From Lentzea tibetensis (GTDB lineage: Bacteria > Actinomycetota > Actinomycetes > Mycobacteriales > Pseudonocardiaceae): a stretch of DNA of 64,000 nt. Below are positions 1,922 to 64,000 of this stretch, piece by piece. The notes below the pieces were generated by a model. It saw only the letters and a program-made list of their open reading frames with translations. It searched no databases and was not told the origin of the DNA. Each line of letters starts with the position of its first letter. Within the stretch, counting starts at the first letter, position 1. The translations under genes and the position numbers were made by a program. The stretch spans positions 124,001-188,000 of the forward strand of contig NZ_VOBR01000008.1 of assembly GCF_007845675.1 (NCBI RefSeq). The letters are read 5' to 3'.

Positions 1922-2152
1922 TCACGACACCGCCTCACACAGCAGGCTGCGCACCTCGCCCAGCGCATGCCCAGCAAGCTGCCGCGCCCGGTCAGCCTCC
2001 TGGCGGCCGACGTCGACGGCGTCCGCCACACCGATCAGCAAGTCGTGATGCTCACGCCACCAGCCACACCGGACGGACGCAGGAGAGGACGGCGGCGGCT
2101 GGGACAACTGGTGTGCCATCGCGACCGACAGCGCGGAGAAGTAGGTGCTCAT
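1922..2152 (-). CDS. Hypothetical protein, 76 aa
   Basis: Starting at the ATG at 2152 gives MSTYFSALSVAMAHQLSQ... and ends ...RSLLCEAVS. The C-terminal two thirds are predicted helical (DVGRQEADRARQLAGHALGE). The start shares one base with the stop of the Pycsar-effector-like gene (TGATG). It has no transmembrane segment or recognised motif. It is a member of the minus-strand operon of the left element; function unknown. A much longer frame that starts at 2449 is antisense-overlapping its neighbour and is not supported. Confidence 0.6.
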   Translation of the reverse strand: MSTYFSALSVAMAHQLSQPPPSSPASVRCGWWREHHDLLIGVADAVDVGRQEADRARQLAGHALGEVRSLLCEAVS

Positions 2153-2628
2153 CACGCCACCGCCGTCACGACGAGAGCGACGACCAGCACGAGCAGACCG
2201 CAGATCAGCAGGTCCACCGCACGGCGCACACGGCCGTACTTCAGCTGAACGATCACCGAGCTGCGGCACACCACCACGGCCTGAGCGACAATCGACGTCT
2301 CTTCCGCCAACGCAGTCAGCAGGTCCGAAGGACGATCCGCGAACTCCGCGAAGAGCGCGAACCCGAACCGGCCGTGCTTGCTGATCCGCGGACGCACCGC
2401 AGACAGCAGCAACAGCACGCTCGCCGTCATCGGCAGCGCCGACAGCCACAGCAACACCTCGACAACGGCCGGCATGCTGCGCGTGGTCAACGCGACCACA
2501 CCAGCTAGGAACCCGCCGAACAGCGGCAGCAGCGACGCGGCCTTAGCGTCCGCGCGGCGCAGCTGGTCAGCCACGTCCGTCTGTGCCTGGTCGATCCTGG
2601 TCATGACGTGCTCGCCGGGCGGGGTCAT
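2152..2628 (-). CDS. Pycsar-effector-like transmembrane protein (DUF5706-like), 158 aa
   Basis: The N-terminal helix (IDQAQTDVADQLRRADAKA) leads into a first membrane segment (SLLPLFGGFLAGVVAL). The RADAKAASLL pattern followed by paired membrane helices resembles the transmembrane effectors of Pycsar cyclic-nucleotide antiphage systems. A second segment (VEVLLWLSALPMTASVLLLL) follows, then a soluble middle of about 60 residues and a C-terminal segment (LLICGLLVLVVALVV). In known Pycsar systems the effector responds to cCMP or cUMP and damages the membrane. No pyrimidine cyclase is encoded anywhere in the window, so this copy looks orphan or depends on a cyclase elsewhere. The ATG at 2628 has GGAGG seven bases upstream and shares a base with the preceding stop. 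Family assignment is by pattern only. Confidence 0.55.
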   Translation of the reverse strand: MTPPGEHVMTRIDQAQTDVADQLRRADAKAASLLPLFGGFLAGVVALTTRSMPAVVEVLLWLSALPMTASVLLLLSAVRPRISKHGRFGFALFAEFADRPSDLLTALAEETSIVAQAVVVCRSSVIVQLKYGRVRRAVDLLICGLLVLVVALVVTAVA

Positions 2629-2924
2629 CACGCAGCCTCCGCCCGCACGACACGACCAGCAGCACGCGGCAGGGACGCAACCGATGCCGGTCGAAGCTGC
2701 TGCGCCTCCTGTGCGACGGCCTGAGCCAGCGTCACGCCGTACTGGGTTTTGACCCCCGCGAGGGCACGAGCCAAGATCCGACGATTGCGCCGCTCACGAG
2801 CCGAACCGTCCAACAGACCCGACGTCGGCGCAGCAGCCGAAGCAATCTCCTCGGACAACTGCTGCTCAATCGCAGAAAGGACCAGGTGGTCAAGGCCGTC
2901 CGGGTAAGTCTTGGTGCTGTTCAT
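2628..2924 (-). CDS. First protein of the element operon, 98 aa (LLDGSA family)
   Basis: The ATG at 2924 follows a ribosome-binding site (GGGAACCACC...), and the protein is MNSTKTYPDGLDHLVL...PTSGLLDGSARERRNRR...EAA. The central PTSGLLDGSA and the arginine-rich stretch after it are also present in the 80-residue protein at 63562-63804 (PTSALLDGSALAQRERR), so the two genes are paralogues heading equivalent operons in two elements. It is the first gene downstream of the operator-rich intergenic region 2925-3088 and is transcribed away from the XRE regulator at 3089. The last codons (GAG GCT GCG TGA) embed the ribosome-binding site of the next gene. No function is known to me. Confidence 0.7.
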   Translation of the reverse strand: MNSTKTYPDGLDHLVLSAIEQQLSEEIASAAAPTSGLLDGSARERRNRRILARALAGVKTQYGVTLAQAVAQEAQQLRPASVASLPRAAGRVVRAEAA

Positions 2925-3578: not shown

Positions 3579-4853
3579 ATGGACCTGGTCGAGTCTTGGA
3601 CCGGCGATACGGCGTGCGCACTACAACAAGCTCTGCGCATGACGAATGAAGCTTTCGCGCAGCATCTCGGAGTGGCCGTGCGGACCATCGCCACATGGCA
3701 TCAACGTGCGGACATCACTCCAGTGCGCGAGATGCAAGAACTGCTCGACACCGCTCTTGAACGGGCACCGGAGAGCGCGCGTGAAAGGTTCATGCGGAAG
3801 GCAAATGGATCGACTGTAGCGGTCGCCACGAGCACTTTCGAGCGAACTGATGATGTAAGTAGGGCTGCACGTGAATCGCTTGAATTCGCCTCTTGGGCTC
3901 TCAGCGAGCAGGTAGACCCGCTGATTCTTGATCACGTTCAGTATGAACTGCGACGTGTTGCGGTGGACTATGTACATGCGCCACTAAAGCCCGTCTTTGA
4001 CGACCTGATCCGATTGCGAGACGTCACATTTGGTCTCGTTCGCGAACGCCCTCATCCAAAGCAATCCCGTGAGCTATTCTTTCTGACCGGCACCAACCTG
4101 CTGTTGCTTGCGCACGCCAGTCAGAACCTTGGCGAACCAGGATCCGGAATGGCGCAAGCGCGGGCCGCCGCTGCATGTGCAGAACAAGCCGATCATGATG
4201 GACTGCGTGCGTGGGTTGCGGGAACTCAAGCGCTGATCGCCGAATGGACGAGACGTTGTAGTGAGGCTGTCGATTTCGCGAGACGTGGTCAGGAATTCGC
4301 AGTAACCGCCGAATCGCGTGGACGGCTAGCTAGTCTAGAGGCGCGATGCTTGGCGCGAACAGGCAAGAAGGAAGAGGCTCTAGTCGCGCTGGCACGTGCC
4401 CAACGGGCATGGGATACCGGGCCCGAATCCGATGACCTTGGCGAGTTTGGCGGACTGCTTACATTCCCGGCGGCCAAAGCGAATTACTACGCGGGTGGTG
4501 TGCTATCCCTGGTTGGCGAGCACGAGCAGGCGGAGCGTGCCGCATTGAAGGCGATCAGCATGTATGAGAACGGGTTGGTAGAAGACCGTAGCTACGGTGA
4601 TGAAGCGCTCGCTCGAGTTGATGTAGCAATCGCACGTCTTGCACGAGGCGAAGTTGATGGCGCAGGCGACGCTCTACGTCCGGTATTTGCACTTCCATCT
4701 GAGCAGCGCATTCAACAACTAAGAGATGGCCTGAATCGCGTAACACGAACGCTCGCTCTTCCGAATTACACTGGTTCCGCTGAAGCTAAGCAACTGACCG
4801 AAGCTGTTCACGAGTTTGTTGTTCCGCGTCCAGACCGGAGGGCCATAGGGTGA
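3579..4853 (+). CDS. HTH-TPR regulator, 424 aa
   Basis: The N-terminal part (residues about 10-65, ALRMTNEAFAQHLGVAVRTI) is a Cro/C1-type helix-turn-helix; the rest is helical and fits TPR-like repeats. This architecture is typical of actinomycete regulators that sense small ligands or peptides. The ATG at 3579 follows a G-rich ribosome-binding region and the array of 11-bp phased RTGCA sites. Its stop overlaps the start of the phosphotransferase gene at 4850-4853, so the two are probably one transcript. Base composition is clearly less G+C-rich than the chromosomal block, in keeping with recent acquisition. Target genes are unknown. Confidence 0.75.
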   Translation: MDLVESWTGDTACALQQALRMTNEAFAQHLGVAVRTIATWHQRADITPVREMQELLDTALERAPESARERFMRKANGSTVAVATSTFERTDDVSRAARESLEFASWALSEQVDPLILDHVQYELRRVAVDYVHAPLKPVFDDLIRLRDVTFGLVRERPHPKQSRELFFLTGTNLLLLAHASQNLGEPGSGMAQARAAAACAEQADHDGLRAWVAGTQALIAEWTRRCSEAVDFARRGQEFAVTAESRGRLASLEARCLARTGKKEEALVALARAQRAWDTGPESDDLGEFGGLLTFPAAKANYYAGGVLSLVGEHEQAERAALKAISMYENGLVEDRSYGDEALARVDVAIARLARGEVDGAGDALRPVFALPSEQRIQQLRDGLNRVTRTLALPNYTGSAEAKQLTEAVHEFVVPRPDRRAIG

Positions 4854-5755
4854 TGGCGATGACTAGCGCACCAGCAGTTGATCCCGCCCTCATCGCCGCT
4901 TGCGAACTAGTTGACCTCGATCCGTCGGATGTACGTCCGCTGCGCGAGCACGGCAGTGCCGTTTACCTTCTGCCGCGTCACGAGGTTTTCGCCAAGGTGA
5001 ATCACCGAAGCGACGACCGCAGTCGTGCGCGTACGGCTGTTACAGTAGCTCGATGGCTGGTCGAAGAATGCTCATTTCCGGCCACTGCGCCCACTGCTGT
5101 CAACCAACCAGTAGATCTGGACAACCTCGGCGCCACTGTGACGTTTTGGCGCCACTACCCTCAGGACGGCAAACCTCAGCCGCCATCTGCACCACTTGGG
5201 TCTCTACTGTCCAAACTGCACCACCTTGGTGATCCACCTGTGCAGTTGGAGCCTTACCCGCCGCTCCACAGTCTTGGTGAAACAGTAAAAGAGTCCACCT
5301 GGCTGTCCTCCTCAGATCAGGCTTGGTTGCTCGACCGGAGAGAAGACCTGATTAGACAGTACGCCGAATTGGATAGCCCTCTCGGCAATGGGATGATTCA
5401 CGGCGATGCTTACCCAGGTAACACGCTCTGGGGGCCAGCTGAACAAGTACTGATGGCCGATTGGGACGAAGTCGCGTATGGTCCGCGCGAACTGGATCTG
5501 GCGAACACCTTTCAGGGAGGAGTTCGATTTGGTCGAGGCTCGCGTGAGTTGCAGGACTTTGTCGATGCTTACGGACATGACCCGCGACAGTGGGATGGTT
5601 TCGCAGTTCTCGTGTCAATGCGTGACTTGCACACGCTAGCTAGCTATATCCGCCTTGCAGATCGTGGAGATGAAAACGTTCGCCGGGAACTAAGTCATCG
5701 AATTGGCACGCTGCAATCAGGGGACAAAACCGCGCGTTGGAACGCGAGACAGTGA
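4853..5755 (+). CDS. APH/choline-kinase-like phosphotransferase, 300 aa
   Basis: The protein has the kinase-like Brenner motif MIHGDAYPGNT (H-x-D-x4-N: catalytic Asp and metal-binding Asn) followed by the metal-binding aspartate in MADWDEVAYGPRELDL, as in aminoglycoside phosphotransferases and related small-molecule kinases. The N-terminal lobe has FAKV as a candidate ATP-lysine motif. It is translationally coupled to the HTH-TPR regulator upstream (TGATG; a GTG at 4850 is an alternative start). The pair regulator plus phosphotransferase is a common cargo of actinomycete elements. Substrate is unknown and antibiotic resistance should not be assumed. The gene is A+T-richer than the chromosome. 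Confidence 0.75.
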   Translation: MAMTSAPAVDPALIAACELVDLDPSDVRPLREHGSAVYLLPRHEVFAKVNHRSDDRSRARTAVTVARWLVEECSFPATAPTAVNQPVDLDNLGATVTFWRHYPQDGKPQPPSAPLGSLLSKLHHLGDPPVQLEPYPPLHSLGETVKESTWLSSSDQAWLLDRREDLIRQYAELDSPLGNGMIHGDAYPGNTLWGPAEQVLMADWDEVAYGPRELDLANTFQGGVRFGRGSRELQDFVDAYGHDPRQWDGFAVLVSMRDLHTLASYIRLADRGDENVRRELSHRIGTLQSGDKTARWNARQ

Positions 5756-5796: not shown

Positions 5797-5888
5797 CTGT
5801 CCCACCTGTCCCACTCGTCCGGCCAGCGTGGTTGAGCGGCGGTTTCAGGTGAGACAGGTGGGCATGGCGGCAGTCCCACCTGTCCCGA
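5797..5888 (+). repeat. 92-bp iteron-like repeat, copy A
   Basis: This segment starts and ends with (C/A)TGTCCCACCTGTCCC-type iterons and has an inverted CAGGTGAGACAGG near its middle. It aligns without gaps to 10566-10657, about three quarters identical by eye, in the same orientation. The outer iterons and the central GTTGAG and TTTCAGGTG stretches are conserved, while the bases between them differ. The two copies flank the cargo segment with the NACHT gene. A role as a replication origin, transfer site or regulator-binding cluster is possible; I cannot distinguish these from sequence. Confidence 0.7.
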
Positions 5889-5926
5889 TGTGCGGCAGAG
5901 CATGGCTTGCACTACCCCATTGGCCT

Positions 5927-6517: not shown

Positions 6518-6553
6518 CCCCGTCCTTGGCATTCGGTACGAAGGAGGCTCGAC

Positions 6554-9500
6554 GTGACATACGACTATGAGGCGCTTCTCGATGAAGCGTTTCAGATGGT
6601 GTGTCAAGCCCTCCTGGTTGCTGAACACAAGGACGTGCAATGCCTGCCAGTAGGCATGCCCGACGGCGGGCGAGATGCGCTTCGTTACGTTGACGATGGA
6701 CATGGGATCATCGTCTACCAGGTAAAATTTGCACGTAAGCCTAATATGATCAAGGACCCACTCAAGTGGCTGATTAATGCTATTGACGACGAGCTGCCCA
6801 AGATCGCTAATCTCGCTTCCCGAGGGGCACGCAAGTATGTCCTGATTACCAACATGTCAACATCGTCTCACCTCGACATAGGGAAGCTAGACAAACTAAA
6901 CAAGCACTTCAAAAAGAGTCTTCCTATTCCTGCCCTTTGTTGGTGGAGGGATGATCTCGATAGGCGTCTAGACAACAACTTTGACCTTAAGCTTCGCTAC
7001 CCAGCGCTCCTAACGGGAGCGGACATCCCGCGGTTGATAATGGAGGCTGGACCGTCGCTTACAGAGGAACGGCGACGAGCCACGGCCTTGATCGCCTATC
7101 TCTCACATCAACATGAGCAAGACTCGACACTTCGATTCAAGCAGGCGGAAGTCGAGAGTCAACTTCTTGACCTGTTCGTCGACGTCCCTATGACATCGTT
7201 TCATGGCCCGGCGTTAGGTGCTGATGACCTACAGGGTCGAGCCTTTCGAAGGTTTATATTCACTAAAGCGCAGATAACTCGTTACCGTAGTAAATCGAGA
7301 CTGCGTCCGGCAGCAATGCTAACTGAGAACGAAGTCCATGGGTTCCAGCCAGGCGGTCGTCAACAACCGCCTGCCCATGCGGCCGCAGATGTTCTTCTGG
7401 ACCCATTCTTTCATCAAGGTGTAAATCGTGTGGTTCTGGAAGGTGCGCCTGGACAGGGTAAGTCGACACTAGCCCAATACGTTGCTCAGGTTCAGAGAGT
7501 CCGCATTCTGAAAGAGCACGCGGGCATAGCGAAGCTTCCAGACCGCCATCGAGACAGTCCGGTAATGCTTCCTATTAAGATCGAATTGCGTGACATCGCG
7601 ATGTGGTTGCGTGGTATCGACCCCTGGGCGTCATCACCAGGCGAGGAGCATGGGCGTGCCAAAACACTGGAATCTGCAATAGCGGGTCACATAGCCCGTT
7701 ATTCGGGCGGCTTTGACTTCGCTGTGTCGGATGTACATGAGGTTGTCGGAAATCGTCCCGTACTTTTGATACTAGATGCGCTAGATGAAGTAGCCGATCT
7801 AGATGACCGATTGCTAGTTGTCGACGAGATAACAGCGGCTCTCGTTCGCATGGACTCCACAGGGCAACGGCTGAGTGTCATCGTCACCAGCCGCCCAACT
7901 GCGATAGCAAACTCACCCACGCTGTCAGGTAAGAAGTTTGCCTACTTTTCATTGGCCTCAATAGATCAAAGCTTGGCACTTGAGTACACGTCTAAATGGG
8001 CCAAGGTTCGAGGCTTGTCAGCCAACGACATAATGCAACTGCAACGGACCCTACGTCTAAAGCTGCAGTCTTCCCATACGGCCGAACTTGGGAAGAATAC
8101 AATGCAACTTTCTATCCTGCTGAATCTTATTCATGTCCGTGGCGAGAGTCTGCCAGACAAACGAACTGCACTGTACGACACCTATGTCGATGTCTTCCTT
8201 AACCGCGAATCGGAAAAGAGTCCCGTAGTCCGCGACAATCGGGAATTGCTCGTTAGCATACACCAGTTCCTGGGTTACTACCTTCACGCCCTAGCTGAGA
8301 AGGATAAGTCTAGCGGTCGAATAGAAACAAGTGAGCTACGCGCACTGCTAGTCGAATATCTCGAGAACGAGGGGCACCCGACAGAACTCGTCGACTACCT
8401 GTGGAGTGGCGTTGTTGAACGTGTCGTTGCTCTCGTATCTCGCGTCGAAGGCACGTACGAATTTGAGGTTCAGCCACTTCGTGAGTACTTCGCTGCACGG
8501 TACCTTTACGACACGGCATCGTATTCACCGTCCGGTCACGAGCGCGCCGGGACTAAGCCGGAACGCTTCGCAGGAATTGCGGGAAACACGTACTGGCTGA
8601 ACGTTACGCGTTTCTATGCTGGGTGCTTTAGTGTAGGAGAGTTGCGGGACCTAGCGGATCGTGTGTGCGATCTGTTTGATCCCGAATTGTCCGGATATCA
8701 TATGTTGTTCCCTCGTAGTTTGGCCTTCTTTCTCCTTGAAGATTGGGTCTTCAACCAGTCACCCAAGGCAGTAAATCAGGTTGTGGAGAAGGTATTTGAT
8801 GATGTAGGAATCCGATGGTTGTTCGCTTCAGATCCGAGCTTGGATGGTCAACGAAACACACAACTCTCCCCAAAGTCGGGTGGATCAAGACTTGTTGCAC
8901 TATTCCTGGAACGCATAGGGCATACACGAAGCGGTGATCAACATATCGCATTGTGCAACGGAATTGCGATACACGATCCTGCGGGGGCGATGACGCGGAA
9001 CTGGCTTGCGGATAATACGTCTTGGTTTGAGGATTACCCGCTGGAGTGGGCGCATCTAGCCGGGGTGACGGGTCTTATCAGTCGTATGACGCCTCAAGAG
9101 TCGGATAGGTTCCTGAATGCGGATGCAAGTCGAGAGGCTCGACTATCAACGCTTCTAATCTATGGCAATGAGCATGTATACGCTTCACGTGAAATTCTGA
9201 ATGAAGTTTGCCGAATTGCCCTAAACAATCGCAGTACTGCGATTAGCCTGCGTCGAACACCGTCACCGCTGGCCTTATGGGCGAACGTGGTGATCTATAC
9301 GCCATGGAGCGCGTTCGCTACGGGTGATATTCCACCTGAGAACTTTTTCCGTGCGTTCAACAGCGACGAAAATCCAAGGATTGCTTCACTGCGTAAGGTA
9401 AGTGCAGAACTTGAAGCCGTTCTGCTCTCAATAAATGCCAGCAAATCCAAGGGCGATCTGTCACCATTTGGCTTTGCCCGAACATTTACTCAAACCTTGT

Positions 9501-10345
9501 TGGAGCAGTTTGGTTTTTGCTGGAGCGCCTTAGAGATCGCGAACATTGGAGCGTCCATACCGGATCAAAACGAACGGGGCGCGGGTGCGGGGGCGCTATT
9601 CGACTCTAGTTTCCCGTTGATTGACAGGCTACGCAACGCGCGGCGGCGCGGAAATCAGAAGCAGTGGTGGCTCGAACAGTATAGTCGAATTGAATCGCCC
9701 TCCGACGCTGCTACTTGGGCGATAGCCTTCTTCTCATGGGCTAGAGGAGATGTTCACCTGTCCCTCATCGGGCATTTCGACGACGTGATTCAACGTATGG
9801 ACTCTACGCATCGCGACAGTCTCATCGGTGCAGCAGCTGTGACGGAGCAATATTCGGGCCGGGTGCCAGATCTTCACGATGCGGGTGGCAGTCTTGCAGA
9901 ACTGAACTCGGTTCATTCGTCTACCCGCGCTATGTACCTTGAAAAGATGCCGCTTTCTGCAGCTGTTGACTTCCTAAAGAGGGACGTTGCTACTCTTGCA
10001 CTCACTCCAGCTCTGGCGGTGCGATACACGCGATTGATTGCGCGGGCTGGTGCATCAGAGGATATCGACTGGACTGAGTGTCTAGAGATCGTCCGCTTGA
10101 TTAATAATACGAAGGAACTTGCGTATGACCAGCCGCTTAGTCGGACATCCTATCGCGAGTTTGGCACTGTCTCGGTCGATCTCTGTAAGGAGATTCTGGA
10201 TAACGCTTGGGAATTGCCTGATATGTTCGTATCGCTTGCCTTTATGTGGAGCGGCGGCCCCAAGCGAGTCCGTGCTGTGCAGGACATAGCGCAGGAGCGT
10301 GGCTGGTTTGAGCACAACTATCTACCTCGTAGGTCATCTCGGTAG
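6554..10345 (+). CDS. PD-(D/E)xK nuclease-NACHT STAND NTPase, probable antiphage defence protein, 1263 aa
   Basis: Residues about 1-150 form a restriction-endonuclease-like domain: MPDGGRDAL (D37/D41) followed by IVYQVKF (Q56-x-K58), the D...QxK pattern of Mrr-like nucleases. A NACHT ATPase follows: Walker A EGAPGQGKST (residues 296-305), Walker B with the NACHT acidic pair LLILDALDEV (404-413), and VTSRP as sensor (444-448). The C-terminal 750 residues are helical without an obvious repeat and would be the sensor. NACHT proteins with N-terminal effectors are established bacterial antiphage defences in which target recognition activates the effector; here effector action would be DNA cleavage (inference). 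GTG 6554 has GAAGGAGG upstream. G+C is near half by eye, far below the chromosome, consistent with transfer. It stands alone, bounded by two 92-bp direct repeats. Confidence 0.85.
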   Translation: MTYDYEALLDEAFQMVCQALLVAEHKDVQCLPVGMPDGGRDALRYVDDGHGIIVYQVKFARKPNMIKDPLKWLINAIDDELPKIANLASRGARKYVLITNMSTSSHLDIGKLDKLNKHFKKSLPIPALCWWRDDLDRRLDNNFDLKLRYPALLTGADIPRLIMEAGPSLTEERRRATALIAYLSHQHEQDSTLRFKQAEVESQLLDLFVDVPMTSFHGPALGADDLQGRAFRRFIFTKAQITRYRSKSRLRPAAMLTENEVHGFQPGGRQQPPAHAAADVLLDPFFHQGVNRVVLEGAPGQGKSTLAQYVAQVQRVRILKEHAGIAKLPDRHRDSPVMLPIKIELRDIAMWLRGIDPWASSPGEEHGRAKTLESAIAGHIARYSGGFDFAVSDVHEVVGNRPVLLILDALDEVADLDDRLLVVDEITAALVRMDSTGQRLSVIVTSRPTAIANSPTLSGKKFAYFSLASIDQSLALEYTSKWAKVRGLSANDIMQLQRTLRLKLQSSHTAELGKNTMQLSILLNLIHVRGESLPDKRTALYDTYVDVFLNRESEKSPVVRDNRELLVSIHQFLGYYLHALAEKDKSSGRIETSELRALLVEYLENEGHPTELVDYLWSGVVERVVALVSRVEGTYEFEVQPLREYFAARYLYDTASYSPSGHERAGTKPERFAGIAGNTYWLNVTRFYAGCFSVGELRDLADRVCDLFDPELSGYHMLFPRSLAFFLLEDWVFNQSPKAVNQVVEKVFDDVGIRWLFASDPSLDGQRNTQLSPKSGGSRLVALFLERIGHTRSGDQHIALCNGIAIHDPAGAMTRNWLADNTSWFEDYPLEWAHLAGVTGLISRMTPQESDRFLNADASREARLSTLLIYGNEHVYASREILNEVCRIALNNRSTAISLRRTPSPLALWANVVIYTPWSAFATGDIPPENFFRAFNSDENPRIASLRKVSAELEAVLLSINASKSKGDLSPFGFARTFTQTLLEQFGFCWSALEIANIGASIPDQNERGAGAGALFDSSFPLIDRLRNARRRGNQKQWWLEQYSRIESPSDAATWAIAFFSWARGDVHLSLIGHFDDVIQRMDSTHRDSLIGAAAVTEQYSGRVPDLHDAGGSLAELNSVHSSTRAMYLEKMPLSAAVDFLKRDVATLALTPALAVRYTRLIARAGASEDIDWTECLEIVRLINNTKELAYDQPLSRTSYREFGTVSVDLCKEILDNAWELPDMFVSLAFMWSGGPKRVRAVQDIAQERGWFEHNYLPRRSSR

Positions 10346-10440: not shown

Positions 10441-10497
10441 GCAGACCTCAAGAACGGGCGAGGGGCAACCTCCGTGGGTTCAGATCCCACCGTTGCC
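10441..10497 (+). pseudogene. Degenerate tRNA-Ser-like 3' fragment
   Basis: GCAGACCTCAAGAACGGGCG leads into GAGGGGCAACCTCC (serine-type long variable arm) and a perfect T arm GTGGG-TTCAGAT-CCCAC, then CGTTGCCG in place of the acceptor strand CGCCACCG. The sequence parallels the tRNA-Ser(CGA) 3' fragment at 56598-56650 but the acceptor strand and anticodon loop are altered and there is no 5' half. It is best read as the decayed scar of an earlier integration at a tRNA-Ser-type site inside the left element. Confidence 0.55.
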
Positions 10498-10565: not shown

Positions 10566-10657
10566 CTGTCCCACCTGTCCCATTGGTCCTGACAGCAGGG
10601 TTGAGCTGCACTTTCAGGTGGGACAGGACTCTGATCGAGCTGTCCCACCTGTCCCAG
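10566..10657 (+). repeat. 92-bp iteron-like repeat, copy B
   Basis: This is the direct copy of 5797-5888, ungapped, with CTGTCCCACCTGTCCCA at its left end, the inverted TTTCAGGTGGGACAGG in the middle and CTGTCCCACCTGTCCCA again at its right end. Its forward and reverse iterons are cleaner than in copy A. Together the copies bracket about 4.7 kb with the NACHT gene. Confidence 0.7.
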
Positions 10658-10711
10658 AGGTGTTCGTGTACGGGCTGGAACGGGGAGGGGTGGCGGTTCA
10701 TACTCGAACGC

Positions 10712-11077: not shown

Positions 11078-11369
<292 letters not shown>

Positions 11370-55856: not shown

Positions 55857-56511
55857 GGAACGGGGCCACGGCGGACCAGAACTCGTCCGGCTTGGCGCTG
55901 TGCACGCGATGCCCGGCGTCCTGGACGGTCACCAGCAGGCAGTCGGCGATGGCCTCGCTCATCCGCGCGAGCGCGTCGACCGAGACGTGGCTGCTCGGAC
56001 CGCCGCTGACGAGCAACGTCGGTGTGGTGATCGCGTTGAGCCGTTCCCACCAGCCGGCGTCAGGGCTCCTGAGCTCGGTCATGATCGGCTCGATCAGGCG
56101 CCAGTCGAACGGCAGCGGCTCGGACGGTTCGGCCACCGGTGCCAGCGGTTCCTGCGGTGGCCTCTCGGGCGGAGGCGGGGTGTCCTCGACGACCAGCCGC
56201 CGCACGCGTCCGGGCTCCCGTTGAGCGAGGAGAACGGCGACTCTCCCGCCCATCGAATGACCCACCACGTCCGCCTGCTCGACACCATGGTCGTCGAGGA
56301 AGCCGAGCACGTCGTCGCACATCAGCTCCAGCGAGTACTTCTCCGCCCAGGAGCTCTGCCCATGTCCCCGCAGATCCACGGCGAGGACATGGCGGCCATG
56401 AGCGGCCAGTCGGGCTGCGAAGTCGTCCCAGGTGCCTGCGGTGCTGCCCAACGCGTGGAGCAGCACGACCGGGATGTCGCCACGTGTTCCGGCCTCACGG
56501 AAAGCGATCAC
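55843..56511 (-). CDS. Alpha/beta-hydrolase, 222 aa
   Basis: The fold starts VVLLHALGSTAGTWDDFAAR with the oxyanion HALG, a nucleophile elbow VVGHSMGGRVAV (Ser in GHSMG), and a late DAGHRVHSAKPDEF histidine; the acid would be in the LVSGGPSSHVSVDAL region, which is atypical, so activity is uncertain. It is close to the 2-succinyl-6-hydroxy-2,4-cyclohexadiene-type and general hydrolases. The gene is the last chromosomal gene before the tRNA-Ser boundary of the right element. Confidence 0.75.
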   Translation of the reverse strand: MIAFREAGTRGDIPVVLLHALGSTAGTWDDFAARLAAHGRHVLAVDLRGHGQSSWAEKYSLELMCDDVLGFLDDHGVEQADVVGHSMGGRVAVLLAQREPGRVRRLVVEDTPPPPERPPQEPLAPVAEPSEPLPFDWRLIEPIMTELRSPDAGWWERLNAITTPTLLVSGGPSSHVSVDALARMSEAIADCLLVTVQDAGHRVHSAKPDEFWSAVAPFLSRT

Positions 56512-56559
56512 GGAGCGAAGCGTATGAGGTGCCGCAGCGCCATGTCCGGCAAAACGTCA

Positions 56560-56591
56560 AGAGCCCCGGCTACCGAGGTAACCGGGGCTCT
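56560..56591 (-). terminator. Terminator of the tRNA-Ser fragment
   Basis: AGAGCCCCGG (56560-56569) pairs perfectly with 56582-56591 across 12 bases; on the minus strand it is followed by TGACGTTTT. It lies seven bases after the tRNA 3' end and is the native terminator of the tRNA-Ser gene. Confidence 0.85.
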
Positions 56592-56597
56592 GAGCAG

Positions 56598-56650
56598 CGG
56601 TGGCGGTGGGATTTGAACCCACGGAGGGTTGCCCCTCACACGCTTTCGAG
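56598..56650 (-). other. Element boundary: 3' part of tRNA-Ser(CGA), attachment site
   Basis: On the minus strand CTCGAAA (anticodon loop, CGA) is followed by a serine-type variable arm (GAGGGGCAACCCTC), the T arm GTGGG-TTCAAAT-CCCAC and the acceptor strand CGCCACC with discriminator G. Upstream of the loop there is no 5' half: the preceding GCAGAC does not pair with GCGTG and no GGTGGCG start is present. This is the displaced 3' end left after an element integrated into the anticodon region; the intact tRNA-Ser should lie to the right of the window. Confidence 0.75.
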
Positions 56651-56671
56651 GTCTGCGATCCATCGTCCGGC

Positions 56672-56929
56672 AAGCATCGCCGAGATGCGTTCGCGCAGTT
56701 CAGAGGGTATGTCTGCGATCGAGCTGACCGCCCGCGAACGGTGCTGAACGGTGCTGGACACACCATGAATGAGACGACGTATGAGACGACCTCCACCATG
56801 CAGGCTCGCGCCCCAGCCGAGCGGAGCTTCTGCCGCGAAGGGGGTCTGAGCAGGCAGAAACGTCGGCGACGGAGCTCTCATCGCAGCACGGTGCAGCCAC
56901 ACAGGACGTGGCGCACGTCAAATCATCAA
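56672..56929. other. Gene-free stretch inside the right element
   Basis: No supported gene. The minus strand holds a frame ending LAGRWIADLESV (56636-56902) whose last residues coincide with the att-like sequence; the rest shows no coding character. There is a short tandem repeat GAACGGTGCT x2 (56736-56755) and a repeated ATGAGACGAC nearby. The promoter and operator of the ATPase gene follow at 56930. Confidence 0.4.
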
Positions 56930-56953
56930 ATCAACAAAAGGTTGATGTAGATT
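56930..56953 (+). promoter_or_regulatory. Promoter with internal operator for the AlbA_2 ATPase gene
   Basis: ATCAAC (56930-56935) and GTTGAT (56941-56946) form an inverted repeat immediately upstream of TAGATT (56948-56953), a TANNNT -10 that lies six bases before the GTG at 56960. The repeat thus sits between -35 and -10, where a bound repressor would exclude RNA polymerase. The mRNA is probably leaderless. Confidence 0.6.
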
Positions 56954-56959
56954 TGCCAT

Positions 56960-58666
56960 GTGGACGCCATCGAGCTTGGGCTGCTCGTCGCTGACCTGCG
57001 GACCGAGGGCAGCGACCTAGCCGAGGTTGAAGTCAAGCGCGCGGCCGGAGGGTTCCCGGAGAACCTAGCCCCAACCCTGTCCGCCTTCGGGAACACCCCC
57101 GGAGGCGGCCTCATCATCTTCGGTCTTGATGAGCACTCTGGCTTCGAAGCACGGGGCGTGTACGACGTCGCTGCCTGCCAGCAAGCCATCGCGGCGGCAG
57201 CGCGCAACGCCGTCACCCCGCCATTGACCATCGCAACAACCAGTGTGACTTTTGAAGATGCACAGATCGTAGTTGCTGAAGTTGGTGAGCTCCCCAGTAC
57301 AAGCAAGCCTTGCCGTGCTCGCTCCACCAATCGTGCTTACCTCCGCTCATACGATGGCGACTACCCAATCTCCGAACTTGAAGAACAGGCATTCTTGGCA
57401 AGTCGCGAGACACCCCGATTCGATCAGCAGGAAGTACCCGAAGCATCGATACATGACCTAGACGATGACTTGGTAAATTCCTATGTATCCTCCTGCCACT
57501 CAACCTCTACGGCCCTTCAGCGATTCCCCCATGACGAACTGTTGTTCCGCACCGGAGTTCTGGTGGGCAATGCCAGGAGGCCGAGCATTGCTGGACTCCT
57601 AGCCCTAGGGGCATACCCTCAGCAGTTCTTTCCTAACTTGGTAATCCAAGCGAGCGTCAGCCCAAGCTCCCAAGATCCTGCTGGCACTCGGGCGGTAGAC
57701 GCCCGCCGGTTCGACGGCCCTATACCTGTCATGCTTGACGAGGCTCTTCGATGGGTAAATAGGAACACCAGGAGTCGCATAAGATTTGGCCGCGACGGCC
57801 ACGGACGTGACGAACCAGAATATCCTGCAGAGGCAGTACGTGAACTCCTATCGAACGCACTTGTACACCGAGACCTGGGACCGCACGCCCTAGGTGAGGC
57901 TATAACCCTACGCCTGGACAATTCGCAACTCGTCCTATCAAATCCAGGTGGATTGTGGGGACTAACCACGGCCCGCCTAGGCCAGACTGGGGTGACGTCA
58001 GCACGAAACGGGTTCCTGGTCCGAATCTGCCAGAACGTGCGATATAGCGGGGATCAGCGGGTTGTGGAGGCGCTTGCTACCGGCATTCCAACTGTACTAA
58101 GGGCCGTACAAGAAGCAGGAATGGTTCCACCACGGTTCCATGATCAAGGTATTCGTTTCGCAGTGCTAATGCCAAACCATGCACTACTCGCCGAAGATGA
58201 CCTCCATTGGCTAAGCACTACCACGGACGGCATTCTGCTTAGTGACGTGCAACGTCACGTGCTTGTAGCGATGCGACATGGTGAAACCTGGACGAACAAG
58301 ACGCTCCGTGATGCTTTTCCTATGGATTCGCGTGACGCAACTCGCACATTCGCTGGCCTTGTAGACGCAGGGCTAGCTCAAGCACGCGGCGAACGGGGCG
58401 GCAGAGTATACGAACTCGCAGAGGATTTAGACGACAACATTGTCGAACCGCCCATTAATCTCATCGATGAGGAGTATCTACCCGAAACAACCAGCGCAAT
58501 TCTAGACGCTCTGCGCGATAACCCCTCGACGATCAGTGAAATCATGGACGTGACAGGTTTGACTTACCGGCAAGTCCAATACGCTCTGGCAAGCATGCGC
58601 GAGGCAGGCCGCGTCGTACTTGAAGGAGGGCGCGGAAGGCGCGATAGCCGCTACTCGCTGGCCTAA
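56960..58666 (+). CDS. AlbA_2/Schlafen-type ATP-binding protein, 568 aa
   Basis: The N-terminal domain (DLAEVEVKRAAGGFPENLAP, LSAFGNTPGGGLIIFGLDE) is an AlbA_2/Schlafen-like fold with an ExK motif. A GHKL-type ATPase follows: N-box EAVRELLSNALVHRD and G-box SNPGGLWG (residues about 290-345). The C-terminus has winged-helix parts (ATRTFAGLVDAGLAQARGER; TISEIMDVTGLTYRQVQYAL). Such proteins act as regulators or as defence-island components; no target is known here. The GTG at 56960 follows a TANNNT -10 with an operator, so its expression is controlled. It is A+T-richer than the chromosome. Confidence 0.8.
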   Translation: MDAIELGLLVADLRTEGSDLAEVEVKRAAGGFPENLAPTLSAFGNTPGGGLIIFGLDEHSGFEARGVYDVAACQQAIAAAARNAVTPPLTIATTSVTFEDAQIVVAEVGELPSTSKPCRARSTNRAYLRSYDGDYPISELEEQAFLASRETPRFDQQEVPEASIHDLDDDLVNSYVSSCHSTSTALQRFPHDELLFRTGVLVGNARRPSIAGLLALGAYPQQFFPNLVIQASVSPSSQDPAGTRAVDARRFDGPIPVMLDEALRWVNRNTRSRIRFGRDGHGRDEPEYPAEAVRELLSNALVHRDLGPHALGEAITLRLDNSQLVLSNPGGLWGLTTARLGQTGVTSARNGFLVRICQNVRYSGDQRVVEALATGIPTVLRAVQEAGMVPPRFHDQGIRFAVLMPNHALLAEDDLHWLSTTTDGILLSDVQRHVLVAMRHGETWTNKTLRDAFPMDSRDATRTFAGLVDAGLAQARGERGGRVYELAEDLDDNIVEPPINLIDEEYLPETTSAILDALRDNPSTISEIMDVTGLTYRQVQYALASMREAGRVVLEGGRGRRDSRYSLA

Positions 58667-58765
58667 CAATGGATGTGGCGAGGCAATGACGGCTCGGGGA
58701 AGTCGAACCGCCCTACTGGCAACGACACGCAAACCAAACCTCGCGCTTTCGCACCGCCGTCGAGG

Positions 58766-60985
58766 TCAACCAGGCTTACGCACGAGATTCGTGTATCCAA
58801 CGATGGCGAGAGTGAGCAAGAACCATACAAGGGCCTGAATAAACCAAATAATGGCAGCAAAGAAGGATCCGCGCCCTGTAGCCATATCTATGTCGCAGCG
58901 ACCTCTCACGCCGGTAGGCCCCAGCGGAAGACCACGATCCAGACCGAGCCCGATGAGCTCTATCGACGAACAAGGGACTCCAGGCCCCGCGCTTGACATT
59001 GCCCCTGTGGGAACAGTGCGCTCTGCCACATGGTGCCCCGGCCGGGTTTCCACTTGTCCAGCCCAATAGCCGGTAATGCCCGCCAAAATCAACAATATAA
59101 ATAGCACCCCAAACGCGCGGCCTGTGCGGTATCCATACCTGATCAGGAAACCCATCATCGCGTGAAATACCCAAGCCGAACTGCTGTAAAAGGTCCGCCT
59201 ACCAGCTCGCGCTCGCCGGTCACGTTGCTGAGTTATCAGGATATGGGTCGCATTGCCGTCATGACCTGCAGCGCGTTCAACTGAAGCAAGATGTTGAAAC
59301 GGCTGAGGTTCATACGCAACCGCGTGAAAGCGAATGATATGCAACCAGTCGCGCCAATCACATATGGCCAACGAGGCGAACTTAAGGTCACCAATGCTGA
59401 CACGAAATCGACCGCCACATTTTTCATCCCGAACGTGACTCAAACATACGACCTTAGCCGGAAAATGGAGGCCCGCTCCTACATATGCGCCCTCTAGCAC
59501 CAGCGCATGGGTAGCGCCCGCGAGTCTGAAGTCCTTGCCAACAAATTGCCCCCCGATATGCGCTCCAGGCAGGCGAACTGTCCCTCTAGTTCCTGCGCCA
59601 CGGGCATTCATTCCCATAACTAGGTTCGCACCAACATAGAGGCCGTCAGCGAAGAGCGCCGATCCTTCATCGTTTACCACTTCGACGTCCTCTAGGTCAA
59701 GCTGTCCAGTGATTCGCGCACCAGAAAGTCGAATTGCTCCCGTTTTCGAGTTTCCGTGAGCCTTAACTCGCTTAACAACAAAGTGTGTATCCACTCGGAG
59801 GCTATCCGCATGCAGAGCTGGCCCAGAGCTGTTAACCGCTTCAATATCAGTTATTTCAACAACGCCACCTACATGTGCGGTAGCAAATCGTACTGCACCA
59901 GATCTCCCTTCGCCCTCAAACTTGCAGCGCCTTAGAAATATCTTCCCGCGGACGTCGACCCCCTCGACCTGTAGTGCCACACCTGCATCGTTTATAACCT
60001 CGCTGTCTACGAATTCGAACTGGCGGCCGATCTGCGCGCCAGGGAGACGCACAGCACCGTCGGCATCTCGTCCAGAAAATCTCACATCTCGGAAGATCGC
60101 GTCAGATCCGACATCAATCCCGTCGGCACAGATGGCCGGACCTGAAAGATTAAATACGCTTGACTCTTTGACTAGCAGCTGACCGCCAATAGCCGCATTA
60201 AGGCAGCGGAGCGCGCCATGGGACCCCGAACCAACCAGCTCTAGCTTTTGCAAGTAGAGATTGCTGCCAACGCTCATACCGTCCGCAATAACCGCAGGTC
60301 CAGAACTATTCGCCGCTTGAAAGTCATCGAGTGTGAGTTGCCCGCCGATTTTAGCCGTCGGCATTCGAATAGCGCCTTCGTCGCCGACACCACCTATACG
60401 GGCCCCACGGAGGAAGACGTCTGCATCAACCTTAATGCTGTCAATAAGTACCGCCGGACCAGCTTGATTACTTGCATTAAGTCCGTCACAAATGAACTGC
60501 CCCTTGACGTGACCTAGAATTAGACGTATGGCACCGCCGCTCAGATTTGCGGCCACATACATTTGCTCGAGGTTCAGGTCTTGCTCGATTCGCACACCGT
60601 CAGCGTGTATTGAAGCAATACGGCTACCAAGCAGACTCAAGCTGGGCAGAACTGCATACTCCGCCTTAATGTGGTCCACAACTGCGCACTCGACGAGCGC
60701 AAAGCCAGTAATGCCACTCACCCGATCAAGGTCCAGCTCACCAACTATCCTCGCCCTCCGCACGCGGACGCCGCGAGGATCAAGCGCACCGTATCGCCCT
60801 ATCAGGAGATCGCGGATCAACTCAGCTCGGATCTCCACCGCCGGGTTGGCGGATGAGAAAAGCTCGCTCACCTCCTGCGAGCTGCATACCATCTCACTAC
60901 CGCGCCGGGCCGCCTTGATCAGCTCGCGTTCGTGATCGGTGAGATCAGCGCCAGTGTGCGGTCCATCGTCCGAGGAGTCGTTCAT
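58766..60985 (-). CDS. Membrane protein with seven ~53-residue beta-helix repeats, 739 aa
   Basis: After about 130 residues, a repeat of about 53 residues occurs seven times; typical units start GA(I/V)R(L/M)...A.IGGQ, then ...N.SGPA(L/V).ADG(I/L).V, for example GAVRLPGAQIGRQFEFVDSE followed by VINDAGVALQVEGVDVRG. The pattern fits a right-handed beta-helix. Near the C-terminus are two membrane helices (GVLFILLILAGITGYWAGQV and FFAAIIWFIQALVWFLLTLA), so the helix is tethered to the membrane. Function is unknown; such proteins occur in actinomycete elements and islands. The ATG at 60985 has GAGGGC upstream. No catalytic motif is seen. Confidence 0.7.
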   Translation of the reverse strand: MNDSSDDGPHTGADLTDHERELIKAARRGSEMVCSSQEVSELFSSANPAVEIRAELIRDLLIGRYGALDPRGVRVRRARIVGELDLDRVSGITGFALVECAVVDHIKAEYAVLPSLSLLGSRIASIHADGVRIEQDLNLEQMYVAANLSGGAIRLILGHVKGQFICDGLNASNQAGPAVLIDSIKVDADVFLRGARIGGVGDEGAIRMPTAKIGGQLTLDDFQAANSSGPAVIADGMSVGSNLYLQKLELVGSGSHGALRCLNAAIGGQLLVKESSVFNLSGPAICADGIDVGSDAIFRDVRFSGRDADGAVRLPGAQIGRQFEFVDSEVINDAGVALQVEGVDVRGKIFLRRCKFEGEGRSGAVRFATAHVGGVVEITDIEAVNSSGPALHADSLRVDTHFVVKRVKAHGNSKTGAIRLSGARITGQLDLEDVEVVNDEGSALFADGLYVGANLVMGMNARGAGTRGTVRLPGAHIGGQFVGKDFRLAGATHALVLEGAYVGAGLHFPAKVVCLSHVRDEKCGGRFRVSIGDLKFASLAICDWRDWLHIIRFHAVAYEPQPFQHLASVERAAGHDGNATHILITQQRDRRARAGRRTFYSSSAWVFHAMMGFLIRYGYRTGRAFGVLFILLILAGITGYWAGQVETRPGHHVAERTVPTGAMSSAGPGVPCSSIELIGLGLDRGLPLGPTGVRGRCDIDMATGRGSFFAAIIWFIQALVWFLLTLAIVGYTNLVRKPG

Positions 60986-61145
60986 GCCCTCAGTGTCGCT
61001 CCCGTGAACCTAACCGCTACACGTGCACCACACCATGCATCGGGATTGCAACGGTTGATGCGGGCTCTGATCCGATAGCACCGCTCGTGCCCGCCGAGGT
61101 TCCCAGCTGTTCTGAGAGCCAGCCTCCAATCCTTGTAGAGCATCG

Positions 61146-61518
61146 GTAACTGCGGTAACTGCGGTAACCACGCAGGTCAGGCGGTTACCTTTGATCATGG
61201 GGTTACCGATTGGATCGGTAACCAGCTCCGGTTGGATGCGACAGCCACTGGACCGACAACGGCATAGAACGGCTGAAGCCGGAGGGGGCTGAACCAATCC
61301 GTCTCACGCGCATAGGCTCTCGTGAGCACCGCAACCGCTTCACCTGCGGCGACGGTCGCGCCGGCTAGCTACACAGACAGTTCCGCGGTAAGGACCAATA
61401 CCCAACAGAGTTGCGCGACGCCACGAGGCTATGTGCTCGGGTTACCGATTCAATCGGTAACCGCACCCCGATCGGTACGCCCTCTGACCTGCACGGTTAC
61501 CGCAGTTACCGCAGTTAC
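61146..61518. repeat. Mirror-symmetric iteron locus, candidate origin or paired operator
   Basis: The left half has GTAACTGCGGTAACTGCGG continuing through GCAGGTCAG (61146-61180) and the palindrome GGTTACCGAT-tgg-ATCGGTAACC (61201-61223). The right half has the palindrome GGTTACCGAT-tca-ATCGGTAACC (61440-61462) and the reverse complement of the 35-bp block (61484-61518), with two mismatches. The block-to-palindrome distances (20 and 21 bp) are equal, so the 373-bp locus is symmetric about 61332. It lies in the 574-bp gap between two minus-strand genes; no gene is supported inside it. Confidence 0.75.
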
Positions 61519-61559
61519 TGATTCCTGAGCCCCGCCTACCGCCATCCTGCAGACCGTCG

Positions 61560-62489
61560 TCAGCGAGCCACGTTCGAGGGGACTTCACCTGTCAGAAACG
61601 CCCTGATCTGCTCTGCGGCCACGGCGTAGCAGCGCCGGTTCGTACCCGGAACCGTGCGGGCAGAGTGCGGACTGATGATGGCACCGGTGCAGGACCACAG
61701 AGGATGGTCACTTGGCAGAGGCTCAGGGTCTGTCACATCCAACGCAGCACGCAGACGGCCGCTCTGCAGTTCGACCACAAGCGCATCGGTATCGACAATC
61801 TGGCCACGGCCAGCATTGACCAGCAGAGCTCCGTCATCCATTGCAGCAAGAAATTTGGCGTCCACAAGCCCCTGCGTATCGTTGGTCAGCGGAGCAGTAA
61901 TCACCACGACCGCGTGGCCACCAATGAGGCTCGGAAGCTCACTCGGCGCGCAGATACCGTCGCGCGCCGCGCTAGCGACCAGTGTTGAGTCGGCATCAAA
62001 AGCAGCAAGCTTCTCAGCCACAGCACTTCCGATATGGCCAGCTCCAACAATGAGTACACGTTTTCCTGCGAGAGTATCAGCGTCGAACCGGCGATGAGCC
62101 CACGTATGTTCGTCCTGAAACCGCACCAACGCTGGCCAATGACGCAATTGAGCCAGAATCGCTGACAGCACCCACTCGGACACCGAACTAGCGTGCCCAC
62201 CTCGCGCGCTCGCCAATGTCACATGATCGGGAACGTACGGCCTCCACTCGTCCACACCAGCAGATAGCAGTTGAACCATACGCAGCTTGGGCATCTGGTC
62301 AACCAGCTCATACGGCCGATGACTCCCCCGGTACGGCGGCATCAAAATCTCAGCGGCAAGTTGCAACTCAGTGAGTGTCAAGTCATTCGGATCGTAGGTG
62401 ACAACCTCAACACCTGGGATGGCAGAAAGATACTTGTGCCCCGCCTTATCATCAGCCTCGCCGCTAACAAGAATCCTTACCGCAGTCAC
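61560..62489 (-). CDS. D-isomer-type 2-hydroxyacid dehydrogenase, 309 aa
   Basis: The NAD-binding motif VLIVGAGHIGSAVAEKL and the catalytic arginine/histidine region (LLVNAGRGQIVDTDALV, ISPHSA) place it in the D-2-hydroxyacid dehydrogenase superfamily (glyoxylate, phosphoglycerate or hydroxypyruvate-type). Specificity is unknown. The GTG at 62489 is chosen with a G-rich ribosome-binding stretch; a further start at 62519 exists. It lies just downstream of the GntR-kinase gene on the same strand, so the two are probably co-transcribed, a pairing that recurs in actinomycete elements. Confidence 0.8.
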   Translation of the reverse strand: MTAVRILVSGEADDKAGHKYLSAIPGVEVVTYDPNDLTLTELQLAAEILMPPYRGSHRPYELVDQMPKLRMVQLLSAGVDEWRPYVPDHVTLASARGGHASSVSEWVLSAILAQLRHWPALVRFQDEHTWAHRRFDADTLAGKRVLIVGAGHIGSAVAEKLAAFDADSTLVASAARDGICAPSELPSLIGGHAVVVITAPLTNDTQGLVDAKFLAAMDDGALLVNAGRGQIVDTDALVVELQSGRLRAALDVTDPEPLPSDHPLWSCTGAIISPHSARTVPGTNRRCYAVAAEQIRAFLTGEVPSNVAR

Positions 62490-62528
62490 GACCCTTACCG
62501 CCCCTCCGTATCGACCCACAGCAACATA

Positions 62529-63377
62529 TCATCCCTGACTTACAACTCGGGAGACAAGATCGCGCGCCTGAGTTTGCAACGGGGCACCAGATGCACTGTT
62601 GTCGATCGTCGCATGCGGAACTGGTGGACGAAATCCCACGTCGATCGAGTCGGTATAGCTGTCCCAGTTCTCAAGCTTATAGGAGTCTCGTGCAGCTCCG
62701 CGTTGACGGATGTATGTGTGCATCGTGTCCACGTCACAATGAACCCATACGAAGGTAATTTTCGCGTTCATTGCAGCACAGGTGGCCTGCAACCTGTTGA
62801 GCCAAGCAACATCCTTGAACTCTTTCATAAAAGGCGCAGTGACGATCGCACTGTTCCCGCACTGCACGTTCTCAGTCATTGCGTGAATTAGAGCCTCATA
62901 CTCACGTGGGCGAATGCGTGAGACATAATCATCAGACTCGCGATCGTGAGGCGAACAGCCAAGAAGCTCAAGCGCCGCTTCGACTACCGGACGCGTCAAA
63001 GTGTCCTTGTCGAGGATTGCCCACCCGGTTTCACGTGCAAGGACGCGACCAAGCTCGGTCTTTCCGCTGCCCGCATAGCCGCCGACGAGGAGGACATGGG
63101 GCGATTCCGTGCGCACTTCGGTGTGCTCAGCTTGTTCAGGGGCGTTCACGACTCGTCCTGCACGAGGCTTGGTGACGACCACACCGTCAGCTACGAGCGT
63201 CTTCATCGCTTCGTTGATCGTGAACACACTCACGTCAAACCGCTCGGCCAGCTCGCGCGTAGACGGCAACGGCTGGCCGTCACGCAGCACGCCTGCCGCG
63301 ATCTGGTTGCGGATGTTCTTAGCCACCTGCTGATGCAGGGACTCCGCTCGCGAGACGCGAGGGCTCTTGCCGGGCAT
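62529..63377 (-). CDS. GntR-type regulator fused to a P-loop kinase-like domain, 282 aa
   Basis: Residues about 10-75 are a GntR winged helix (SLHQQVAKNIRNQIAAGVLR, PLPSTRELAERFDVSVFTIN). A P-loop domain follows (VLLVGGYAGSGKTELGRVLA) with the zeta-toxin-like region RPREYEALIHAMTENVQCGN and FVWVHCDVDTMHTYIRQRGA. Single-domain GntR proteins of the KorSA type repress transfer and replication genes in integrative elements; a kinase fusion suggests that a small molecule or its phosphorylation gates repression. The ATG at 63377 is used. It is divergent from the element operon that starts at 63562 and has the operator at 63500-63513 between. Confidence 0.8.
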   Translation of the reverse strand: MPGKSPRVSRAESLHQQVAKNIRNQIAAGVLRDGQPLPSTRELAERFDVSVFTINEAMKTLVADGVVVTKPRAGRVVNAPEQAEHTEVRTESPHVLLVGGYAGSGKTELGRVLARETGWAILDKDTLTRPVVEAALELLGCSPHDRESDDYVSRIRPREYEALIHAMTENVQCGNSAIVTAPFMKEFKDVAWLNRLQATCAAMNAKITFVWVHCDVDTMHTYIRQRGAARDSYKLENWDSYTDSIDVGFRPPVPHATIDNSASGAPLQTQARDLVSRVVSQG

Positions 63378-63486
63378 GCGACCTCCGGTGCGCTCGTCCT
63401 GGCCAGGATCATACCAGTGGCCTAACAGGCGCATATCAGCGTCTGTGCAGGTAGAGGAGGTTTTTGGGAAAGTTTTGCCCATTCAG

Positions 63487-63516
63487 TTGACCTGTATTCC
63501 TAACAACTGTTAGCTT
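63487..63516 (+). promoter_or_regulatory. Repressible promoter of the element operon (TTGACC/TAGCTT with CTAACA operator)
   Basis: TTGACC (63487-63492) and TAGCTT (63511-63516) are 18 bases apart; the inverted repeat CTAACA-ac-TGTTAG (63500-63513) overlaps the spacer and the -10. The adjacent divergent GntR fusion is the likely repressor of the operon that begins at 63562. Confidence 0.65.
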
Positions 63517-63561
63517 CCTCTCATCGCCGATGTGGCGCCGGACACATGAGAGGGACACCCG

Positions 63562-63804
63562 ATGCACTCGCAGGAAGAGAGTCAGAACTGGTTCAGCCCG
63601 GACGGGCTGACCGCTGACGAGATCAGGTGGATGTTCGCCGACAGGCTCGCCGAAGAGGCGCCCCGTCCGACCAGTGCGTTGCTGGACGGTTCGGCTCTGG
63701 CGCAGCGGGAGCGGCGCGAGGCCAAGCGGCTGCTCAGCAGCACGGTGCGCGTTCTGCGCGTCCGCAGCATCACCTCCGCACCGACTGGGACGGAGGCCGC
63801 CTGA
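63562..63804 (+). CDS. First protein of the right element's operon, 80 aa (LLDGSA family)
   Basis: The protein (MHSQEESQNWFSPDGLTADE...RPTSALLDGSALAQRERREA...TEAA) shares PTSALLDGSA and an arginine-rich tail with the left element's 98-residue protein at 2628-2924. Both start the element operon next to the divergent regulator. Its last codons (ACG GAG GCC GCC TGA) embed GGAGG for the next start. ATG 63562. Function unknown. Confidence 0.7.
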   Translation: MHSQEESQNWFSPDGLTADEIRWMFADRLAEEAPRPTSALLDGSALAQRERREAKRLLSSTVRVLRVRSITSAPTGTEAA

Positions 63805-64000
63805 TGCTCACGATCACCCACCCTGGCCGCGTTCACCTCGCGCTTGACCTCGCGCACGGTCACGTCGAGGTCCACGTGGAAGACACCCGCAAGCACGCCG
63901 AGGTCACGCTCACGCCGATGCTGGACAGCGACACCACGGCCGCGCGGCTCATCGCCGACGCCCTGGTCACCGAGACCGGCGACCAGCTCTCGGTGACGGT
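63804..64000 (+). CDS. Hypothetical protein, 5' part only
   Basis: ATG 63804 shares one base with the upstream stop (TGATG) and has GGAGG in the preceding codons. The visible part (MLTITHPGRVHLALDLAHGH, VEVHVEDTRKHAEVTLTPML...) is rich in beta strands and resembles DUF4097-type beta-repeat proteins; this is uncertain. The gene runs off the window. Confidence 0.55.
   Translation, partial: MLTITHPGRVHLALDLAHGHVEVHVEDTRKHAEVTLTPMLDSDTTAARLIADALVTETGDQLSVT

Follow-up and report, generated by a model that had tools for sequence, protein, structure and literature searches.

A PD-(D/E)xK-NACHT protein, probably a single-gene immune receptor, as cargo of an AICE-type element in Lentzea tibetensis

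Introduction

Among bacterial proteins related to the nucleotide-binding leucine-rich repeat receptors (NLRs), bNACHT25 and bNACHT32 (NACHT clade 6) are described as PD-(D/E)xK-NACHT antiphage proteins that protect against RNA phage MS2, depend on the nuclease residue for this, and break down DNA once the cell is infected; the trigger of bNACHT25 was traced through phage escape mutants and co-expression of phage proteins (PMC12169576). DS-8, from DefensePredictor, joins an enzymatic effector to a NACHT domain and is reported to require both for defence (PMC13092281). A NACHT gene was listed in 2011 on an actinomycete integrative and conjugative element (AICE), a kind of element whose modules include Prim-Pol, with Frankia AICEs as the carriers (PMC3218068). 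The subject of this work is a gene within a 64,000-nucleotide stretch of Lentzea tibetensis (the window; contig NZ_VOBR01000008.1, positions 124,001 to 188,000), which encodes a 1263-residue protein composed of an N-terminal nuclease domain, a NACHT ATPase, and a helical C-terminus, and which lies on an AICE-type element. We would regard it as probably a single-gene, NLR-like immune receptor of the signal transduction ATPase with numerous domains (STAND)/NACHT kind.

By the description in the source, bNACHT25 and bNACHT32 share the order of parts of the window protein (N-terminal PD-(D/E)xK DNase, central NACHT, helical C-terminus); their C-terminal domain is called NCH1 (PMC12169576). DS-8 differs in its effector, a metallophosphatase in place of a nuclease (PMC13092281). 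The passage on the NACHT-carrying Frankia AICEs names neither a nuclease fusion nor a defence role (PMC3218068). Avs3 and Avs4 differ from the window protein, whose ATPase belongs to Pfam NACHT and which matched no solved Avs chain in a sequence search. The PADLOC profile PDC-S73, which is named in no paper found in the literature searched, has 752 positions, of which the window protein matches only the N-terminus. The PD-(D/E)xK-NACHT layout is thus already known from bNACHT25 and bNACHT32. No paper was found by title or abstract to be devoted to the present lineage in a search on NACHT with antiphage, nuclease, HNH, and AICE; the lineage is not claimed as new because this search did not cover the main NACHT survey.

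Protein architecture and conserved motifs

The gene has a GTG start and an uninterrupted frame (positions of all features in Table 1) and is single-copy in the genome. Its G+C content is 0.523, against 0.663 in the remainder of the element and 0.696 at window positions 11501-57000. Relatives were collected by a scan of named genomes, from which the best 80 of 248 confirmed loci were taken, all 80 yielding a frame that matched the query. A 52-row alignment (47 PD-(D/E)xK and 5 HNH rows) was chosen from these 80 and the window protein, and 37 of the 52 aligned sequences were scanned with Pfam. In the nuclease domain D37 is kept in 46/47 sequences of PD-(D/E)xK type, and G38, G39, D41, Q56, and K58 each in 47/47; in the ATPase K303, D408, D411, and E412 are invariant in 52/52, HNH rows included. 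Residues kept to this degree make the motif pattern more than chance. An earlier note on this DNA, made from the letters alone, had pointed to a D...QxK nuclease motif, to the Walker A string EGAPGQGKST, to the acidic pair of a NACHT DxLDE motif, and to a G+C content markedly below that of the host; all four are borne out, the first as D37...Q56-x-K58, the third as D408-A-L-D411-E412.

The ATPase of the window protein is matched by Pfam NACHT PF05729 (E 9.4e-8; 32.5 bits, above the curated cut-off of 26.7), and NACHT is matched in 37/37 members at E<=0.1. For the nuclease domain the Pfam scan of the window protein gives no match at E<=1, and among the members Mrr_cat is matched weakly in 1/37 (E 0.022). 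PDC-S73 matches residues 2-124 weakly (E 2e-5; its positions 3-113). The predicted structure of the domain contains an alpha-beta-beta-beta-alpha-beta core, and its best alignment to a solved structure is with residues 3-174 of Avs4, which we take to be the Avs4 effector part. The nuclease assignment rests on this predicted fold and on motif conservation, together with the weak PADLOC match, and supports an N-terminal domain of PD-(D/E)xK fold with its catalytic motif intact. The nuclease of the earlier note is borne out by fold and motif, with no Pfam match in this protein.

The C-terminal part was modelled by AlphaFold2 (AF2; mean predicted local distance difference test score, pLDDT, 84.1; predicted template modelling score, pTM, 0.86) and consists of nothing but helices. 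The structure search returned no significant fold match for this model. Among 25 of the 26 Pfam families listed for the 37 members (E<=0.1), none falls in the C-terminal region and no NCH family appears. Conservation is lower in this part, yet W1039 is kept in 46/47 sequences and in 5/5 HNH rows. A C-terminus without recognisable repeats had been proposed; this holds for the sequence and fails for the model, a long, solenoid-like run of helices. To call it a potentially new sensor domain was an overstatement, the part belonging to a large family that crosses phyla. The helical arm is probably what senses the trigger.

Distribution, effector exchange, and neighbours

In a search among related genomes, matches at E<=0.001 were found in 36 of 299, own genome included; the match covers nuclease and NACHT in 9 (own included) and the NACHT region onward in 27. 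In a draw across the phylum, 5 of 396 genomes had a match at E<=1e-30, again counting the own genome. The loci listed come from Actinomycetota, Pseudomonadota, Bacteroidota, Cyanobacteriota, Bacillota, Acidobacteriota, Spirochaetota, Chloroflexota, and others. A tree was made of 68 of the 81 sequences (L068, L084, L085, L091, L099, L106, L118, L120, and L131 excluded by hand as apparently cut, split, or duplicate; L139 not entered; L093, L117 [an HNH row], and L130 dropped by the match/length filter). The window protein clusters in it with five other Actinomycetota (support 100/98), and phyla are intermixed (18 label changes against a minimum of 9); the tree is rooted for drawing only, and its branching does not give the direction of effector exchange. 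Relatives occur in 19 plasmid records at E<=1e-5, and no GenBank phage record was matched. Three predicted viral contigs (IMG/VR; L154, L155, L156), confirmed from 191 pattern matches, encode relatives of 42%, 30%, and 26% identity in the best segment, the first matched across residues 1-1093; these contigs may be true viruses or integrative elements. The relatives they carry speak against a plain "absent from phages".

Different effectors are found on a kept body. Four of the plasmid relatives bear an HNH endonuclease annotation, and Pfam HNH_2 is matched at their N-termini (E 1.1e-4 to 7.6e-3; 2/4 above the curated cut-off) and in 3/37 of the members scanned. A Catellatospora protein of PD-(D/E)xK type (L092) is 35-37% identical to five HNH-type proteins (L111, L112, L113, L117, L121) from its residue 169-192 to its end, and blastp finds nothing N-terminal of that point at E<=1e-3; in the tree L092 and four HNH rows form one group (support 100/100). 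The connector between nuclease and ATPase travels with the NACHT body where the effector changes, as judged from the alignments. A more distant pair has a Cap4 dsDNA nuclease (Dictyobacter L128, E 9.9e-20) and an NNH5 domain (Nostoc L126, E 1.2e-22) at the N-terminus; the N-termini differ, and the bodies share 37% identity across residues 195-1302 of L126 (about 1100 residues). The alignment of either to the window protein begins only at about residue 220-280 and stops at 710-730, so that exchange on the window's kind of C-terminus is seen for HNH only. In two lineages of the family, then, the sequences show a kept body of switch and C-terminus that bears varied effectors at its N-terminus. 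It is predicted from this that the body sets what is sensed and the N-terminus only the response of the cell.

The single-gene organisation proposed earlier agrees with the neighbourhoods. Among 2512 frames of at least 90 aa within 8 kb at 52 loci (mechanical frames, from which small partners may escape), the largest cross-locus cluster is found at 6/52 loci, one of its members being a TrwC relaxase, and the next two at 4. The APH-fold neighbour is common to 3 loci, the window included.

Carrier element and sibling elements

The element occupies 25,266 bp, bounded on one side by tRNA-Pro(CGG) and on the other by a 44-bp duplicate of the 3' end of this tRNA gene. It encodes a tyrosine integrase, AAA_25, Prim-Pol (Pfam, E 2.3e-49), a C5 methyltransferase, a DpdA-family protein, a large weak-FtsK/DUF3631 protein, PycTM, an NsdA-type regulator, and an APH-fold protein. 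The FtsK-like gene (L034:11526-13784) is matched weakly by PF01580 (E 2.1e-4; 21.3 bits, under the cut-off of 24) and by DUF3631 (RepAM; E 7.8e-4, likewise under its cut-off). Carriage by an AICE, as the earlier note had it, agrees with attL/attR, integrase, and Prim-Pol, the FtsK-like gene matching weakly; an AICE-type host element is supported by these gene matches. Pfam scans of 19 element proteins brought out no Pycsar cyclase.

Four sibling-element loci were recognised by the FtsK-like gene (63-72% identity across most of the gene), further backbone genes being variably shared. No NACHT match was seen at the four loci, whose ends are unmapped and of which three are represented by 20-kb stretches that may be incomplete. 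One sibling (C97; FtsK-like gene 69% identical) lies in the window's own genome and is without the NACHT gene, because that genome holds the gene once; its extras are HTH (helix-turn-helix)- and HD-domain genes and, by reading of the translation, a NUDIX-like gene. The sibling in a congener (G016, a genome without any match in the search of 299) has GmrSD_N and RiboL-PSP-HEPN genes at the matching end (L150:4449-6289, minus strand). Next along from this pair stands an MrcB_N/NOV_C gene (L150:1948-3102), perhaps outside the element.

A repeat module, made of two CTGTCCCACCTGTCCC boxes that lie about 75 bp from each other and enclose an inverted CAGGTGGGACAG, flanks the NACHT gene with two of its copies. 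With at most 1 mismatch CTGTCCCACCTGTCCC has 8 occurrences in 9.36 Mb; 7 fall inside the element, where they make three modules. Two of these three conform to an exact two-box pattern, and this pattern was found in 2/200 genomes (own and G016), both times in related elements; the G016 sibling has two copies, one adjoining the defence-like GmrSD_N/HEPN pair. A plasmid search with the module gave no match. The module may serve cassette exchange; a role as operator or as origin repeat is equally possible.

Three further observations concern the element. In the tyrosine integrase (L034:2845-4353, minus strand; 503 aa), residues 304-357 match a LacI-type helix-turn-helix and lie between the two integrase matches. 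The DpdA-family (DeoxyPurine in DNA protein A) gene (L034:8958-9794, minus strand, = C88:117957-118793; E 1.6e-73) adjoins the C5 DNA methyltransferase gene, and from these matches a 7-deazaguanine DNA modification on an integrative element is possible, other dpd genes not having been specifically searched for. A tRNA T-arm-like string at window positions 10470-10497, downstream of the NACHT gene, occurs once in the genome and is perhaps an old att remnant.

Proposed function and alternatives

A single-gene receptor carried as cargo is argued for by a predicted nuclease fold nearest to Avs4, near-invariant motifs, and NACHT in all members scanned; by effectors that vary on one body and the finding of no partner gene; and by the need of bNACHT25 and bNACHT32 for their nuclease, together with the GmrSD_N/HEPN genes at the matching end of the G016 sibling. 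We infer a working in which, at rest, the nucleotide-holding NACHT module would keep the N-terminal PD-(D/E)xK domains apart. The trigger would be something made or done by an infecting phage or an incoming element, and the C-terminal helical part would sense it directly or via a host protein; NACHT modules would then swap nucleotide and oligomerise, the nuclease domains would be brought together, and DNA would be cut. Cutting would halt the infection and protect, probably with the death of the cell as its price; by analogy, an abortive mode is likely.

The same parts could belong to an NTP (nucleoside triphosphate)-dependent restriction enzyme whose C-terminus recognises foreign (e.g. modified) DNA and whose nuclease cuts only that, with no cell death. 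We think this unlikely: its fold neighbours rank below Avs4 and have just the nuclease core in common with the window protein; NACHT is known as a switch family, not as a translocase; no methyltransferase or other neighbour cluster exceeds 6/52 loci; and replacement of the nuclease by HNH, Cap4, or the helical NNH5 suits a switch better than a restriction enzyme. The protein might instead guard its element against rival mobile elements (plasmids, other AICEs) and not against phages, which would be compatible with a receptor and is in keeping with the relatives on plasmid but not GenBank phage records, the 69%-identical sibling gene in the same genome, and the TrwC relaxase in the largest neighbour cluster. 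Relatives on predicted viral contigs speak against it, plasmid carriage does not reveal the target, and the NACHT proteins of the published accounts act on phages; to us it has a slim chance. STAND ATPases occur in regulators too, and an NsdA-family regulator lies 1.7 kb upstream. A regulatory or housekeeping role (control of transcription or excision of the element, the nuclease being degenerate) is nonetheless very improbable in view of catalytic residues near invariant across phyla, a gene not seen at any of the four sibling loci, and Pfam matches of the window protein that include no DNA-binding domain.

For the family as a whole we would suggest, tentatively, that NACHT and helical body form an old recogniser across many phyla with exchangeable killing domains (PD-(D/E)xK and HNH and, in a lineage further removed, Cap4 and NNH5), and that in this AICE family it sits in a swappable defence slot marked by the element-specific repeat module, the whole receptor being exchanged by recombination between copies. 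The locus adds defence-like cargo to AICE-type elements and offers a candidate slot, with its repeat module, at which cassettes might be exchanged.

Table 1 Features of the nuclease-NACHT gene and its element. Positions without a prefix are those of the window.
Feature	Position	Strand	Basis or remark
PD-(D/E)xK - NACHT - helical C-terminus protein, 1263 aa	6554-10345	+	open reading frame, Pfam, predicted structures
Ribosome-binding site GAAGGAGG	6540-6547	+	read directly; 6 nt 5' of GTG start
N-terminal PD-(D/E)xK nuclease domain, residues 1-150	6554-7003	+	
Nuclease residues D37; Q56; K58	6662-6664; 6719-6721; 6725-6727	+	
Conserved connector, residues about 165-215	7046-7198	+	includes D190, F195, Q197, L207, D210
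NACHT ATPase, residues 285-483	7406-8002	+	Pfam PF05729; motifs in 52/52
Walker A; DALDE	7439-7468; 7775-7789	+	
C-terminal all-helical, solenoid-like part, putative sensor, residues 631-1263	8444-10342	+	AF2 model
tRNA-Pro(CGG)	C88:110029-110103		
attR, 44 bp	11326-11369	+	identical to tRNA-Pro(CGG) 3' end (C88:110060-110103); right end of element
Repeat module, upstream copy	5797-5892	+	
Repeat module, downstream copy	10566-10661	+	79% identical over 99 bp to upstream copy
Repeat module, third copy	C88:113778-113868		between AAA_25 and HTH genes
PycTM (Pycsar effector) family protein	2152-2631	-	Pfam PF18967, E 5.4e-12
NsdA-family TPR (tetratricopeptide repeat)-like regulator	3579-4853	+	NCBIfam NF053720, 89.3 bits, cut-off 75
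APH-fold phosphotransferase family gene	4850-5755	+	Pfam PF01636, E 1.5e-10

Away from the element, a second stretch of lower G+C content (0.55-0.62) lies at the right end of the window (about 56000-64000), and a further FtsK-like gene stands just past that end (C88:191432-192718); the stretch is probably another mobile element.
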